Source: Leptolyngbya sp. BL0902
GTDB taxonomy: Bacteria; Cyanobacteriota; Cyanobacteriia; Phormidesmidales; Phormidesmidaceae
Direction: 5' to 3'
Length of the DNA stretch: 64,000 bases
Assembly (NCBI RefSeq): GCF_016403105.1
Contig: NZ_CP046155.1
Span: forward strand, 1,488,001 to 1,552,000
Positions within the stretch are counted from its first letter, which is position 1. Every line of letters begins with the position of its first letter. The position numbers and the translations under genes are program-made. Under the pieces are notes generated by a model. That model searched no databases and had not been told where the DNA came from. It saw only the letters and a program-made list of their open reading frames with translations. This document shows, piece by piece, positions 37,603 to 42,683 of this stretch.

Positions 37603-38424
37603 TCAACCCAGCAGATCCCGCAGTTGTTGGGGGTTAGGCCACTGACCGACAATGCGGCGCACGGGGGGGGGCGATACCCGAATCAGGGTGGGGGTGGCGG
37701 TAATCAGGTCGGCCTCAGCCTCGTCGGGATGGGTCAGCACATCGATGAGATGGAGGGTATAGGGTTCGGCTAGGGTCGCCTCCAGGGTGTGGCGCAGAAC
37801 CCGCAGCATTTGCTCGGTGGCCAGGGTGTCGGCCCCGCTGACAAACAGCTTAAACAGGTGCGTGCCCGACTCTGGAGGGTGGTCTGAGGGATTTGCCGCA
37901 AGCCCCTCAGCAGTTGTCGGATCCGGGGATATTTTTTCGTTCGATGCCCCCGCCCCCCGCGCCGCCAAGGATGTTCCTAGGGGGCTAACCCAGGTGGCCT
38001 CCACCCGCATCACCAGGTTGTGGCGCTCCCACAGTTGGGGAAAGGTGGTGCGATAGGATTCGATGACCCACACCGAACAATCTTCCTGGTGGCTATAGTT
38101 GGGTTGCCAAATCAGGTCATCGGTGTCAAACAGGATATTCAGCAGGGTTTGAAACCGCAGGGCACGAGGGTAAGCCTCCGCCACGGTGACAACCTCCCGG
38201 CTGCTGGGGTCTAACCAGCGATCTACCGTTGCCGTAAAGCAGGGCAGCAAAAAGTAGGGCGGCTCGGACAGGCCCAGCGCACTTTGCAGGGCCGTGCAGA
38301 GATCCAAATGCCAGTGGTTGTTCTTCCGCTGGTCGATGCAGTAGACGCAGTCGCCGCCAGGGGTAAAGAGGGCCAGCCCCTTAAAGCTGGCGGCGGTCGC
38401 GGTAGGGTTCGGTGATTTAGACAC
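37603..38424 (-). CDS. KaiB-domain protein with unknown N-terminal domain
   Basis: A 273-residue two-part protein. Residues 188-273 form a KaiB/thioredoxin-like domain: LFKLFVSGADT, LHLIDVLTHPDEAEAD and the hallmark ATPTLIRVSPPPVRRIVG, which match the clock protein KaiB closely. Residues 1-145 form a domain I cannot assign, with a CVYC pair (26-29), Cys43, and FTATVDRWLDP; a Gly/Pro/Ser-rich linker (150-187) joins the two. KaiB is normally about 100 residues and stands next to kaiC; here it is fused and its start overlaps the end of pilT by eight bases, so it is cotranslated with the pilus motor. A regulatory link between clock-type signalling and twitching is a guess. Confidence 0.8.
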   Translation of the reverse strand: MSKSPNPTATAASFKGLALFTPGGDCVYCIDQRKNNHWHLDLCTALQSALGLSEPPYFLLPCFTATVDRWLDPSSREVVTVAEAYPRALRFQTLLNILFDTDDLIWQPNYSHQEDCSVWVIESYRTTFPQLWERHNLVMRVEATWVSPLGTSLAARGAGASNEKISPDPTTAEGLAANPSDHPPESGTHLFKLFVSGADTLATEQMLRVLRHTLEATLAEPYTLHLIDVLTHPDEAEADLITATPTLIRVSPPPVRRIVGQWPNPQQLRDLLG

Positions 38425-39766
38425 GACCCCGCAGCATTTGCGCCATTTCGTTCTGCTTGGGTGCCATTTCTAGGGCCGTTTCCTCGGTAATGCGCCCAGA
38501 TTCATACAGGGCGTAGAGGGACTGGTTCATGGTACACATGCCGTCGAAGGTACATTTGGGAATCAGCGCTTCCACTTCGTCCAGCTTGCCTTGCAGGATG
38601 TAGTCCTTAATAGCATCGGTGTTGATGAGGATGTCGTGGAAGGCGGCGCGTTTGCCGTCGGTGGTGCGGCAAAGCCCCTGGGCAATCACCGCAATCAGCG
38701 ATTCTGCTAGGGATACCCGAATCGGAGCCTGCTGTTCGGGCTCGTAGAGGTTGAGAATCCGCTCCACCGTCTTCACGGCGCTGTTGGTGTGCAGGGTGCC
38801 CATCACCAAGTGTCCGGTTTGGGCGGCTTTGAGGGCGGTGTTCACCGTTTCCTTATCCCGCATTTCCCCCACCAGAATGATGTCCGGGTCTTCCCGCAGG
38901 GAGGCTTTCAGGGCGTTATCAAACTTGTGGGTGTGCATCCCCACTTCCCGCTGCTTCACCAGGGAACGCTTACTGGTGTGGACAAATTCCACCGGGTCTT
39001 CGATGGTGATGATGTGCTTCGGCATTTCGCTGTTGACGTAGTCAATCATCGCCGCCATGGTGGTAGATTTCCCGGAACCCGTTGGCCCCGTCACCAGGAT
39101 CAGGCCCTTGTGGTAGTGGCAGACATCTTTGAAAATGCCCGTAAAGCCCAGTTGCTCTAGGGTGAGAATTTTCACCGGAATCAACCGCAGCACCATGGCG
39201 GGGCCGCGCAACGAGTCAAAAATGTTGATCCGAATCCGGGTGAAGTCGTACTGGGCGGCACCGTCAAAATCGAGGGTTTGGCGAAATTCTTGAATTTGGT
39301 CGGGCCGGAGAATTTCCGACAGCCAGTTATAGAAGGTGGCCTCGTCGGTGACGGGGTATTCCGTTGGGGTAATTTCCCCCCGTTCCCGATAGCGGGGCAC
39401 TTCGCCAACGCCGAGGTGAATGTCAGAAAAACCCTTATCAAAGGCTTCCCGCACGATATGTTCCAGGGTGGGACTGCCGCCCACCTTAATGCTTTCCGCC
39501 GCTGTGGGCATGGGGGGCGGGCTCGCAGGCCGATGCCCAGCCGGAGCGGGGGGGCTCTGCTGGCCCGGTTGGCCCTGGGGGGCGGGGGGACGCTGGCCCG
39601 GTTGGCCCTGGGGGGCAGGAGGACGCTGGCCCTGGGGCGGGGGCGGCGCGGGGGGGCGCTGGCCCTGGGGCGGGGGTGGGGCGGGGGGACGCTGGCCCTG
39701 GGGCGGTGGCGGCGCGGGCCGAGGGGGCATATTGGGGGTGGCCGGAACGTTGGATGACTCAGCCAT
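38417..39766 (-). CDS. pilT: Type IV pilus retraction ATPase PilT
   Basis: A cytoplasmic hexameric ATPase that depolymerises type IV pili for twitching and phototaxis. The core shows Walker A GPTGSGKST, the Asp box IITIEDPVEF, Walker B DIILVGEMRD, the His box TGHLVMGTLHTNSA, and the PilT tail ending GRITEETALEMA. The 449-residue protein is about 85 longer than typical PilT because of an N-terminal Pro/Gln-rich tract (about residues 12-95) made of 11-residue repeats. I start at the ATG at 39766. It is the first gene of an operon with the KaiB-domain protein. Confidence 0.95.
   Translation of the reverse strand: MAESSNVPATPNMPPRPAPPPPQGQRPPAPPPPQGQRPPAPPPPQGQRPPAPQGQPGQRPPAPQGQPGQQSPPAPAGHRPASPPPMPTAAESIKVGGSPTLEHIVREAFDKGFSDIHLGVGEVPRYRERGEITPTEYPVTDEATFYNWLSEILRPDQIQEFRQTLDFDGAAQYDFTRIRINIFDSLRGPAMVLRLIPVKILTLEQLGFTGIFKDVCHYHKGLILVTGPTGSGKSTTMAAMIDYVNSEMPKHIITIEDPVEFVHTSKRSLVKQREVGMHTHKFDNALKASLREDPDIILVGEMRDKETVNTALKAAQTGHLVMGTLHTNSAVKTVERILNLYEPEQQAPIRVSLAESLIAVIAQGLCRTTDGKRAAFHDILINTDAIKDYILQGKLDEVEALIPKCTFDGMCTMNQSLYALYESGRITEETALEMAPKQNEMAQMLRGRV
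39558..39722 (-). repeat. Five 33-bp tandem repeats in the pilT 5' region
   Basis: The word CGCTGGCCC (or close variant) recurs at 39591, 39624, 39657 and 39690, exactly 33 bases apart, with a first degenerate copy from about 39558. Each unit encodes an 11-residue Pro/Gln/Arg block. The plus strand is extremely G-rich here, with many runs of four or more G. Confidence 0.85.
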
Positions 39767-40002
39767 GGAACCAGTTCTCCGTGATGAAAACACAAACCGG
39801 GGGATGGTGGGTGGCTCAAGCACCTCCCAGGCGACCGCTTCCCGGACTATTGCTTAGGTTGCCCAAGGACGGGCCAAAAATTGTCGTCGGGTCGGCAGGA
39901 ACTTTCGTATGGCCGCCCCTGGCTGACAAGTCCTCAAGCTTATACAAACTATACGGGATGGTTCTGGTTTGGGAGGATAGATATTCAAACACTTCATTCA
40001 GC

Positions 40003-41169
40003 CTAACAATACTCAACGGTGACTTCCTTCTGGAAGCGGCGCAGGATCGCCACCAGGTCTTCAATCAGGCTGCGGCGGATGGAAATATTCTTGGGCAGCA
40101 GCGGGTTTTGGTAAAACTCGTTGATGCTTTGCCCTACGAGGAAATGGATGGAGTCGGCCTGGAGGATCTCGCGGGCCAACAGGTAGGCCCCATTGTTATC
40201 GAAGCGCAGACGGCCCAGGTCGCAGTGGCACTGGCGGATATACTCCGTGGCCTTGGAGAGGGTCAAAATCCCCTCCGTTACCAAATCGACGCCGCTCAGG
40301 GTGCCAATGGGGGGCAGTTCCCGCCGCATGGTCGAGAGATCCATCTCCACCATTTCCCCTAGATAACTGGCCACAATGTTGCCCGTGGTGCCGCCACAGA
40401 CCACCTTGCGCCCCTCAAACTCCAGCAGCCGATTCACAAAGGTTTCGTCCTGGCCCTCCTCCAGCGGTGGCCCGGTAAAAATCATCAGCGGGTGGCGCTG
40501 GCGCATATACAGCCCCACCATGGTGGCATCGTCGCCCACCTGGCCCTGGTAGAGCTCAAAGGTGTGGTCAACCACTCGCTTCACGATGGAACGGGCGGTG
40601 TGGGCCTGACTGCCAATCACCCCTTCCACGTACTGGGCGATGTTGTCCCAGCCCCAGCCAAAGTTCATGGTCATGCCCATGCCCGCATAGAGCACGCCGT
40701 CGCTGATGGCCCCCAAAAAATCCCCCCGGTCAAGCTGGCCTTCGGCGGATTGCAGCTTGCGGCCCAGAATTTCCTGGGTTTCCATGGCGAGGGGCTGCAC
40801 CCGACCGCGATGGCAAAATACCGGGGCCGGGTTGTCGAAATTAATCACCTTAAAATGATTGGTGTGGCCGTCTACCCAAAGAATCGTAAACGTGGAGTAG
40901 GCAATCTTCCGCACCCGACAGATGGGCAGGGTGCCAATCACCGTTTTCAGCACCTCCTCTAGGGGTACATCGGCGTTCAGCATGGTGATCAAAATTTCGG
41001 TGGTCAGGGTGGCCAAAATGTTGGCCTTTACCCCGCTGCCCAAACCGTCGGACAGCACCACCGTGGTTTTGGTGCCCGTCTTGAGGTACTTCACCTTGTC
41101 GCCACACAGTTCCTCGCCCCGCTTGTTGAGGCTGGCGCTGTGGATGTCAATGAAAGTATCCAGGGTCAT
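40003..41169 (-). CDS. SpoIIE-type serine phosphatase
   Basis: A 388-residue soluble PP2C-like phosphatase. Metal-binding motifs: VVLSDGLGSGVKANILA near residue 37, AISDGVLYAGMG near 155, and VGDDATMVGLYM near 222. The remaining 160 residues form a C-terminal domain I do not recognise, with GRKVVCGGTTGNIVASYLG. Such phosphatases usually dephosphorylate an anti-sigma-factor antagonist, but no such partner is nearby. It starts three bases after the PAS gene, the third gene of the [2Fe-2S]-PAS-SpoIIE unit. The C-terminal region probably senses or binds a target. Confidence 0.85.
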   Translation of the reverse strand: MTLDTFIDIHSASLNKRGEELCGDKVKYLKTGTKTTVVLSDGLGSGVKANILATLTTEILITMLNADVPLEEVLKTVIGTLPICRVRKIAYSTFTILWVDGHTNHFKVINFDNPAPVFCHRGRVQPLAMETQEILGRKLQSAEGQLDRGDFLGAISDGVLYAGMGMTMNFGWGWDNIAQYVEGVIGSQAHTARSIVKRVVDHTFELYQGQVGDDATMVGLYMRQRHPLMIFTGPPLEEGQDETFVNRLLEFEGRKVVCGGTTGNIVASYLGEMVEMDLSTMRRELPPIGTLSGVDLVTEGILTLSKATEYIRQCHCDLGRLRFDNNGAYLLAREILQADSIHFLVGQSINEFYQNPLLPKNISIRRSLIEDLVAILRRFQKEVTVEYC

Positions 41170-41172
41170 CGG

Positions 41173-41811
41173 CTAGTGGCCCTCCTGCCCTCGATCCTCA
41201 ATGGTCGAGCGGGTAGGGCTCCAGTCTTGAGGCCGTACCGCCACGGGATCCACCGCCTCATGCTGGAGCATCTGCACAATTTTTAGCAAACTTACCTTAG
41301 TTTGGGCGGTTGTTTCTCCTAATAGTCCGGCAATTTCCTGTACCACCTTCATCTGGTTGTCTACGACTTGGTTGACCTGCTGAATGGTGGTTTCTTTAAT
41401 AGCAATGAGCTCCCGTCGTTCCGCAAGCTGATGGCTATAGTCGGCCATGATGCAGGCAATGATACCCTCATCAAGAATGGGAAAAATGACCTGATTTACG
41501 AGTAGATCGTACTGGATAAACTCCCTCGGCTTGCCTCGATAGACTTCCCCTGTTTCCCATACTCGTCGAAGGTCGCTGACGTCGTCTAAAATGGTGGCAG
41601 CGGGCTGGCCCAGCACATCGTTGGGCTGCACTTTAAACATTCGACAAAAGGCCGGATTGACCAGCTTAATGTAGAGGTCTGCATCCACAACTAACAGTCC
41701 ATTGGGGTCATATTCCCACAGCAGTTGCCAGAGATGCTGGTGATCTTGGTGGTTTTCACTATCCCCACCCTTAGATCGAGCGGCGTTGTGAGAAAAACTA
41801 GACTCTGCCAT
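41173..41811 (-). CDS. PAS-domain protein with helical C-terminus
   Basis: A 212-residue protein. The PAS domain spans about residues 28-130 (WEYDPNGLLVVDADLYIKLVN ... FCRMFKVQPNDVLGQPAATIL). The C-terminal helix contains IQQVNQVVDNQMKVVQEIAGL followed by LGETTAQTKVSLLKI, which recalls the tail of the PAS proteins encoded beside [FeFe]-hydrogenase operons in Firmicutes. There is no kinase domain, so it is a sensor or adaptor rather than a kinase. Few cysteines are present, so it does not itself look like an iron-sulfur sensor. It follows the [2Fe-2S] gene by 21 bases and precedes the phosphatase by three. Confidence 0.8.
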   Translation of the reverse strand: MAESSFSHNAARSKGGDSENHQDHQHLWQLLWEYDPNGLLVVDADLYIKLVNPAFCRMFKVQPNDVLGQPAATILDDVSDLRRVWETGEVYRGKPREFIQYDLLVNQVIFPILDEGIIACIMADYSHQLAERRELIAIKETTIQQVNQVVDNQMKVVQEIAGLLGETTAQTKVSLLKIVQMLQHEAVDPVAVRPQDWSPTRSTIEDRGQEGH

Positions 41812-41832
41812 GGTGATAATTCAGGGAGTTCT

Positions 41833-42108
41833 CTACGGGACGTGGGCCAAGGCAGCCTCAATCATCGGTAGAATGCGCTCAGTAAAAATGGCGTCTACAT
41901 TTTGGGGACTGATGCCCAAAAAGCGATGATCTTGAAACTTCATGACAATCCCCTGACTGCATGTTTCCAAGCAAAAGGATCCCTTTAGTTCAATCACGCC
42001 ATCGAGGCCATGGGCTTGGATGAGCGCCTGAAGTTTTGGCAGCACATCGTAGACCCCCATTTGGTGGCAGGCCGAACCCATACAGAGAAACAGGTTTTCT
42101 TTTGCCAT
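41833..42108 (-). CDS. Thioredoxin-like [2Fe-2S] ferredoxin
   Basis: A 91-residue protein with the four-cysteine pattern of thioredoxin-like [2Fe-2S] domains (NuoE/HoxE C-terminal type): C9 and C14 (LFLCMGSACHQ), C46 and C50 (SFCLETCSQG). The fold ends with a helix after IFTERILPMIE. It is a stand-alone ferredoxin domain, not a subunit of a larger complex in this window. It starts the three-gene unit and is likely the redox input to the PAS and phosphatase proteins. Confidence 0.85.
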   Translation of the reverse strand: MAKENLFLCMGSACHQMGVYDVLPKLQALIQAHGLDGVIELKGSFCLETCSQGIVMKFQDHRFLGISPQNVDAIFTERILPMIEAALAHVP

Positions 42109-42293
42109 GGCGCTAGGAAATGGGAGAAGGGATAGGGATAGACGAACCTTGTCCAGCCGATACCCCTTTAGTCTAAACAGGCCACCCCCAGGACAGAGGG
42201 CCTAGAAGCCAAGGATTTTATTAAGAAATTCCTCCCTTTCCCTGGGGCTTTGGGCCTAGACGGCATCATCCTAGGGCCAACGATGCGGCCCCT

Positions 42294-42683
42294 TTAGCCG
42301 AACCAGTGGGAGGCGGTCATCATATCCTGGGCCAGGCGAGGATTGGCGCAGGAGACCACCACATCTTCGGAGTGACCAGGGGTGTCGGTGTAGATCGGCT
42401 CGTAATTCAGCAGCGCCTGAATTCCCTGCTGAATCAAGCGATCAATATGGCGGTGCTGTTCGTAGGAATAACACTCGGAGGGGGTGCCTGTCCGCCGAAT
42501 CGTGTCTTGATCGAGGGTGACGTAGATGACGGGCAGCCGCCGCAGGACATAGGCGGTGAGTCGTTGTCGGAAGTCAGGCACATCCAGCGCTTCCCAGTGG
42601 CTAGGGGCCTCCGGATCGCGCAGCACGGTCTCAACTTTGGCAACAACAATGGGGAGCGTTAAATTGACAATGATGTGAGACAT
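42294..42683 (-). CDS. ComFB-like protein
   Basis: A 129-residue soluble protein. The segment FRQRLTAYVLRRLPVIYVTLDQD resembles the core of late-competence ComFB domains (xxxALNRLPxxYVT), which in cyanobacteria include c-di-GMP receptors of the CdgR type. No CxxC zinc motif of Bacillus ComFB is seen. A second conserved-looking part is EQHRHIDRLIQQGIQALLNYE. It lies 185 bases upstream of the [2Fe-2S] gene on the same strand. Assignment is tentative. Confidence 0.55.
   Translation of the reverse strand: MSHIIVNLTLPIVVAKVETVLRDPEAPSHWEALDVPDFRQRLTAYVLRRLPVIYVTLDQDTIRRTGTPSECYSYEQHRHIDRLIQQGIQALLNYEPIYTDTPGHSEDVVVSCANPRLAQDMMTASHWFG

Follow-up and report, generated by a model that had tools for sequence, protein, structure and literature searches.

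Known systems close to the genes analyzed here include hydrogenase-linked modules of fermentative bacteria. In R. albus, a cluster in which a putative Ser/Thr phosphatase accompanies the group C hydrogenase shows strong changes with H2 conditions, according to the accessible part of PMC6776011. In Thermoanaerobacterium, the available text of PMC5707799 reports that deletion of hfsA or hfsB increases adhE transcripts and ethanol, whereas no such increase follows the deletion of hfsC, of hfsD or of the entire operon, and that high adhE and ethanol after the loss of hfsA or hfsB require wild-type hfsC and hfsD. HfsC is presented as a serine-phosphatase homologue in the portion of PMC11837493 that is available. 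Here, we analyzed three adjacent genes (hereafter the trio) in a window of 64,000 nucleotides from the cyanobacterium Leptolyngbya sp. BL0902 (contig NZ_CP046155.1, positions 1,488,001 to 1,552,000). They encode a thioredoxin-like [2Fe-2S] protein, a PAS protein and a SpoIIE-type PP2C phosphatase. We propose, with a probability of roughly 0.6, that the trio is an accessory module of the cyanobacterial bidirectional [NiFe] hydrogenase (HoxEFUYH) that became detached from it, and that it represents a HydS output arm without the H2-binding [FeFe] domain and would tune hox and fermentation by dephosphorylation.

The open reading frames (ORFs) confirm the gene arrangement described by an earlier, sequence-only reading of this DNA, with all three genes on the minus strand and gaps of 21 and 3 bases (Table 1). 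As that reading stated, the unit contains no kinase gene: a Pfam search of its three genes found neither a kinase nor a STAS gene. The four cysteines (C9, C14, C46 and C50) that it listed for the [2Fe-2S] protein and the full set of SpoIIE metal motifs are also present. The four-cysteine motif is kept in all 21 cyanobacterial [2Fe-2S] copies retained by the ORF caller. The phosphatase matches the Pfam family SpoIIE (PF07228) with 61.5 bits, above the curated cut-off of 25, and the PAS protein matches PAS_9 with 32.1 bits (cut-off 27). The metal-site motifs of the phosphatase (D24, D41-G42, D157 and D213/D214) align with the SpoIIE structures 5mqh, 3t91 and 5ucg, and they are invariant across an alignment of 32 rows (the window protein and 31 Clostridia-type rows).

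The trio is homologous to parts of the HydS module. In R. albus, the phosphatase gene comes directly after that of HydS, a [FeFe] hydrogenase composed of Fe_hyd_lg_C (167.5 bits), FeS and PAS domains. The PAS protein of the window aligns with residues 409-558 of this HydS (33% identity; BLASTP E = 2e-21), and two [2Fe-2S] genes located just before HydS present 31-35% identity to the [2Fe-2S] protein of the window. A tblastn search against plasmids found the phosphatase in three Clostridia records, at 36-40% identity and 98-99% coverage. Identity to relatives is generally 36-42% over nearly the full length in the closer matches and 27% in the most distant full-length ones. The search of named genomes yielded at least 569 confirmed stretches with the phosphatase, 80 of which were kept (mostly titled Clostridia). 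A HydS-matching sequence, in some cases cut or frameshifted, lies just upstream of the phosphatase in 79 of these 80 loci, and the H-cluster part was seen in 78; the two exceptions are a contig cut at its edge that lacks the H-cluster part and another that starts inside the phosphatase. When searching Clostridia genomes, we found the phosphatase in 86 of 291, with HydS directly upstream in 39 of 40 loci picked from these hits. Among 386 genomes sampled from the window's own phylum, 133 that lie outside Cyanobacteriia also possess the phosphatase (30-35% identity), and all eight loci inspected there presented HydS upstream, including the H-cluster part, and a HydA2-like gene downstream. The 40 Clostridia loci frequently contain HydA2-like or HoxE/F/U-like genes (27 loci) and occasionally adhE (5 loci). 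The statement in the sequence-only reading that such a trio accompanies hydrogenases in Firmicutes needs a correction: in the Firmicutes loci inspected, PAS is no separate protein and forms the C-terminal domain of the sensory hydrogenase HydS, whereas the cyanobacterial PAS is encoded on its own.

Two Clostridia-type loci depart from this organization and represent possible intermediates. The locus L211 (6832-8284), the exception among the 40, presents no HydS and carries a [2Fe-2S]-phosphatase pair beside HydABC-like genes, and the Acetoanaerobium locus (L062 8983-10164) contains a phosphatase with no HydS, PAS or [2Fe-2S] match within its 19 kb. The neighbors in HydS clusters were compared with a single kinase reference, an APH-like one, which matched in R. 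albus and in just one locus among the 40.

The cyanobacterial version differs from HydS by the absence of the hydrogenase domain. H-cluster motifs were found in none of 22 cyanobacterial PAS proteins, as against 33 of 36 HydS proteins. None of the 26 genomes with the trio presented a match to Fe_hyd_lg_C (PF02906), although three of them (G014, G337 and G381) are genomes of only 73-84% completeness; T. maritima, among 14 controls, did match. A separate [FeFe] sensor encoded elsewhere in these genomes was rejected on the same result. The resemblance of the C-terminal PAS helix to Firmicutes proteins next to hydrogenases, another claim of the earlier reading, held in alignment: across 42 residues, mean identity to 36 HydS proteins is 46%. 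This helix is the best-kept part of the PAS protein, from which we infer that it may serve as the contact or switch of the phosphatase.

We further analyzed the history of the phosphatase. The cyanobacterial sequences form one clade in both trees (98/94 with 26 rows and 100/99 with 12 rows). Both trees are midpoint-rooted and gave long-branch warnings, and they do not fix the direction of transfer. HydS-linked relatives are found on both sides of the midpoint root, which makes the loss of the H-cluster in cyanobacteria the simplest history. Parsimony thus suggests, without amounting to proof, that the linkage to HydS is ancestral and that the PAS-only form is derived.

The trio is a conserved unit in a minority of cyanobacteria. 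Our search of 388 Cyanobacteriia genomes returned 29 phosphatase matches. Three weak ones were dropped (24-27% identity; G150, G318 and G321), and 26 were strong (61-100% identity along almost the full protein) and spread over 17 genera. All three genes are present in each of these 26 genomes, and 22 of them carry the genes side by side in the order [2Fe-2S]-PAS-phosphatase, so that the unit proposed from the window alone survived the comparison of its neighbors. In the remaining four, which belong to one family, the phosphatase gene stands apart and the PAS and [2Fe-2S] genes are found elsewhere; these two genes still follow hoxH in one of the four. A contiguous trio was also observed in three further cyanobacterial genomes beyond the 26. 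Conversely, we found no PAS match in four control genomes with hox genes but no phosphatase, and for the [2Fe-2S] query these four offered nothing better than a 22-24% match, located inside long ORFs.

We then compared this distribution with that of the bidirectional [NiFe] hydrogenase. Using a threshold of 340 bits for HoxH, 127 of the 388 genomes were retained. Another 13 genomes with HoxH matches below 340 bits were dropped, two of which (G069 and G275) resemble fragments of true HoxH. The hoxH gene was found in all 26 genomes with the trio (hypergeometric test, 3.7e-14, uncorrected for kinship). In 17 of these genomes, hoxH adjoins the trio, upstream on the same strand. The gap between hoxH and the trio is 9-260 bases in 16 of 17 measured loci and reaches 3.5 kb, with adhE in between, in the other; the measured loci include the draft genome G024, which belongs neither to the 388 genomes nor to the 26, and omit one of the 26 that was missed by motif. 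In 13 of the 17 hoxH-linked genomes, hoxW directly follows the phosphatase, so that the trio is located between hoxH and hoxW. These results contradict the description of the trio as stand-alone and do not support a signaling system independent of hydrogenase, as the sequence-only reading had suggested.

The whole trio is located away from the hox locus in five of the 26 genomes (G000, the window genome, as well as G001, G002, G014 and G071), in addition to the four genomes in which its genes are scattered. G000 and G002 share one location, next to pilT, and G001 and G014 share another. In the window genome, hoxE-F-U-Y-H extends from C1:798140 to about 804810, a hoxW match is found at C1:285378-285818 and the trio is located at C1:1528003-1530108, with about 720 kb between it and hoxE. 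When the whole genome was searched, the NiFe large-subunit family was found in this one place only, outside the window; the earlier statement that no hydrogenase lies near the trio was thus accurate. We compared the detached copies of the window genome and of its congener G002 and obtained low ratios of nonsynonymous to synonymous substitutions (dN/dS): 0.033 for the phosphatase, 0.093 for the PAS protein and 0.053 for the [2Fe-2S] protein. The detached copies are under strong purifying selection, and decay after detachment was rejected on these values.

The hox loci of the window genome and of G002 present other genes. At the position 3' of hoxH where relatives carry the trio, the window genome has a PIN-type gene and a 1053-residue protein with a weak antiphage-family match (L061 6061-10019). 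G002 carries a similar PIN-type gene together with ATPase-, nucleotidyltransferase/HEPN- and methyltransferase-like ORFs (L219 6682-11626). The PIN-type label in both genomes and the names of the G002 ORFs come from reading the sequence rather than from a profile match. The insertion of a defense-type island may have displaced the trio in these two genomes. Between hoxF and hoxU, the window genome also carries a gene for a PIG3-type quinone oxidoreductase (L061 13294-14319; below the model cut-off), and similar ORFs are found at this position in G002 (L219 2120-3187) and G014 (L221 2396-3421).

Table 1. Positions of the trio and of the adjacent features within the window.
Feature	Position	Strand	Details
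Thioredoxin-like [2Fe-2S] protein, 91 residues, first gene of the trio	41833..42108	-	C9, C14, C46, C50
PAS protein, 212 residues: PAS core and C-terminal helix QMKVVQEIAGLLGETTA, without H-cluster domain	41173..41811	-	Homology with the PAS region at the C-terminus of HydS
SpoIIE-type PP2C phosphatase, 388 residues	40003..41169	-	Catalytic domain (about 1-223) carrying every metal aspartate; family-specific C-terminal domain (about 224-388)
Intergenic region 5' of the trio, 185 bases long up to the neighboring gene	42109..42293	-	
pilT-like ATPase gene, downstream neighbor outside the unit	38417..39823	-	Adjoins the trio in 1 of 26 other loci
KaiB-domain gene outside the unit	37603..38424	-	

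The immediate neighborhood of the trio in the window is not conserved. The earlier reading placed pilT and a KaiB-domain gene beside the trio; they are indeed next door, but this neighborhood is shared with only one of 26 other loci (that of G002). A functional link to pilT or KaiB was rejected on this basis. On the other side, the upstream neighbor (42294-42683, minus strand) is ComFB-like, with 20.7 bits where the Pfam cut-off is 25, and was not matched in the 26 other loci compared. The minus strand of the upstream region contained no sigma-70 promoter-like match, and the scan of this region for promoters and terminators gave results at chance level.

The C-terminal domain of the phosphatase is common to Clostridia and cyanobacteria, with the motifs GPP, CGGT and DLVTEG (window 40003-40500, minus strand), and a Pfam search of this domain returned no match. 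Modeled separately, it reached a mean predicted local distance difference test (pLDDT) of 81 and a predicted template modeling score (pTM) of 0.80. This model, of fair quality, suggests a Rossmann-like arrangement. Foldseek found nothing at E <= 0.001 for this domain alone. The best VIA-align match was to chain B of the FhcABCD complex (6s6y; Z 9.5, root-mean-square deviation 3.4, 115 residues aligned), followed by a chain of a formylmethanofuran dehydrogenase complex (7bkb; Z 9.2) and formate dehydrogenase H (Z 7.7). These scores are close to the usual background, so that the matches are unconvincing and cannot name a ligand.

Our results lead us to favor the interpretation of the trio as an accessory module of Hox homologous to the HydS output arm. 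Under this model, the [2Fe-2S] protein would accept or donate electrons on or close to the Hox complex or the pool of ferredoxin, and the PAS protein would read its redox state or its docking. The C-terminal PAS helix would then switch the phosphatase, which would dephosphorylate a Ser/Thr-phosphorylated regulator. The outcome would be an adjustment of the expression of hox and fermentation genes, or of enzyme activity, in dark anoxia. Candidate targets of the phosphatase are CyAbrB1 and CyAbrB2: the available portion of PMC13421787 reports that they control hox and the pyruvate:ferredoxin oxidoreductase gene nifJ and that they were found phosphorylated in Synechocystis. An output toward fermentation is supported by the genetics of Hfs in Firmicutes described above. 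It is also supported by five genomes with an adhE or pyruvate:ferredoxin oxidoreductase gene at the hox/trio cluster: the bifunctional acetaldehyde-CoA/alcohol dehydrogenase gene adhE stands between hoxH and the trio in G165 (L046 2931-5747) and directly 3' of hoxH in G071 (L224 4234-6906), and genes for pyruvate:ferredoxin oxidoreductase and a dihydroorotate-dehydrogenase-like protein follow hoxW in G035, G039 and G059 (L044, L045 and L047). A bolder version, which we consider possible but doubtful, is that Hox itself became the sensor after the sensor enzyme was lost. Its redox state would be read in trans by the PAS-phosphatase arm through the [2Fe-2S] carrier, and Hox would thereby report its own workload to the control of fermentation. 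Provided that Hox is present, the module could then relocate to any position in the genome.

Several observations weigh against the interpretation that we favor. At the level of the proteins, the [2Fe-2S] protein scores 21.4 bits against 2Fe-2S_thioredx (PF01257), below the curated cut-off of 24.8, and the PAS core presents a mean identity of only 24% to the same 36 HydS proteins. The phosphatase is missing from 101 of the 127 genomes with hoxH, which indicates that the hydrogenase does not generally need it. Moreover, genomes with the trio represent 26 of the 63 with HoxH scores of at least 816.6 bits and none of the 64 below this value; the trio is thus confined to one half of the HoxH sequences, and vertical co-inheritance explains part of the co-occurrence. 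In the window genome itself, the operon argument for a link to hox is gone. The output pathway is a further difficulty: HydS and Hfs systems are known but the pathway itself is unproven. In T. thermosaccharolyticum, restoring hfsD alone to a whole-operon deletion yields the high-ethanol phenotype without hfsC, according to the accessible text of PMC11837493, so that the phosphatase is not needed for this phenotype there. For R. albus, finally, Zheng et al. suggested that the receiver is a Ser/Thr kinase, as quoted in the available part of PMC5707799.

Alternatively, the trio could be an assembly or activity factor that acts directly on Hox rather than signaling to gene expression. It might help to mature or reactivate the enzyme or might dephosphorylate one of its subunits, and the [2Fe-2S] protein would be an additional subunit for electron transfer. 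We consider this unlikely but worth keeping in mind: the trio lies between hoxH and the maturation protease gene hoxW in 13 of the 17 hoxH-linked genomes, detached copies occur only in genomes with hoxH, and the top match of the [2Fe-2S] protein in the PDB is a stretch of the alpha subunit of a Fe-hydrogenase (residues 570-619 of 7p5h; E 2.9e-7). However, most Hox enzymes do without the trio. In Clostridia, the phosphatase follows the [FeFe] HydS, often near other hydrogenase genes, which makes it unlikely that a Hox-specific assembly role is ancestral. Redox partner-switching is a version of the interpretation that we favor. Here, the target of the phosphatase would be an anti-anti-sigma protein of the STAS type, with an RsbW-like kinase encoded elsewhere as its opponent. 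This version is tentative. The search of the whole phosphatase against known folds listed PP2C-type phosphatases in nearly all rows, with SpoIIE, RsbU and RsbX among the closest solved folds, and RsbW-like HATPase_c_2 domains were found in all 17 genomes searched, including 11 matches in the window genome. But the unit includes neither a STAS nor a kinase gene, and the number of HATPase_c_2 domains does not separate four hox-bearing genomes without the trio (5-20) from 13 genomes with it (5-19).

It is much less probable that the trio is a redox-sensing unit independent of hydrogenases, possibly tied to the pilT and KaiB-domain genes. The window taken alone would suggest it, given these neighbors and the distance to any hydrogenase, but hoxEFUYH is encoded in the same genome, hoxH accompanies the trio in all 26 genomes and the pilT/KaiB neighborhood recurs only in the congener. 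Least probable of all is a relic, a sensorless output arm decaying after its detachment. The H-cluster domain is absent, and the PAS and phosphatase genes of the draft genome G024 are in pieces, split into overlapping frames (L037 2795-6536); the start of the neighboring hoxH also looks frame-shifted there, which makes a sequencing error as likely as decay. Against a relic stand the low dN/dS values, the retention of all three genes in every genome with the trio and the conservation of the catalytic motifs. Taken together, we retain the accessory module of Hox as the best interpretation of the trio.

How the bidirectional hydrogenase of cyanobacteria is controlled physiologically is not settled, a question that matters for dark fermentation and biohydrogen. 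If our interpretation is correct, about a fifth of the sampled hox-bearing cyanobacteria (26 of 127) would possess a dedicated three-gene regulator, offering a direct handle on the control of this enzyme. The trio also ties the poorly understood HydS signaling of gut and thermophilic fermenters to phototrophs, and a functional variant devoid of the H2-binding domain would reveal which part of that system transmits the signal and which target the phosphatase has. The surprise of a redox unit with no hydrogenase is thereby replaced by that of an H2-sensing system minus its sensor, retained by phototrophs beside another class of hydrogenase. The accessible portions of the hox maps of Lyngbya (PMC3858816 and PMC2674450) and of a phylum-wide hydrogenase survey (PMC5186783) name no PAS or SpoIIE gene, and the word "phosphatase" appears in none of the three. 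Likewise, the trio and SpoIIE are unmentioned in the available parts of reviews on cyanobacterial redox signaling (PMC13421787) and [FeFe] complexes (PMC6288185). Our literature search, with subscription journals mostly outside its partial coverage, returned no description of the trio in hox clusters and no text joining hoxH, SpoIIE and "cyanobacter".

The trio can be compared with several known systems. In the cyanobacterial hox cluster (hoxEFUYH and hoxW), it lies between hoxH and hoxW in the 13 genomes mentioned above. It shares the PP2C fold and metal motifs with the RsbU/SpoIIE partner-switching phosphatases, but its phosphatase has an extra C-terminal domain without Pfam family, and neither a kinase nor a STAS gene accompanies it. 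HoxJ is a histidine kinase, whereas the output of the trio is a phosphatase. The regulatory [NiFe] hydrogenase that works with HoxJ is similar in that a PAS protein is tied to a hydrogenase-based signal, as far as the available text of PMC5707799 and PMC8163306 describes it. HfsABCD of Thermoanaerobacterium comprises a PAS-bearing [FeFe] hydrogenase homologous to HydS (HfsB) and a serine-phosphatase homologue (HfsC), as compared from the descriptions in the accessible parts of PMC5707799 and PMC11837493; it differs by its host, a fermentative Firmicutes, and by its [FeFe] sensor. A further close system is the module of HydS ([FeFe] group C), with the order [2Fe-2S]-HydS-phosphatase-HydA2 in R. 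albus. The trio lacks the H-cluster and [4Fe-4S] domains of HydS, and its partner hydrogenase is the [NiFe] enzyme Hox, far away in the window genome. The two nevertheless share the [2Fe-2S] protein, the PAS domain with its LLGETTA helix, a phosphatase homologous over its full length, the same gene order and the proximity to hydrogenase genes, and the adhE genes at the hox loci of G165 and G071 echo the adhE-HydS cluster of R. albus.

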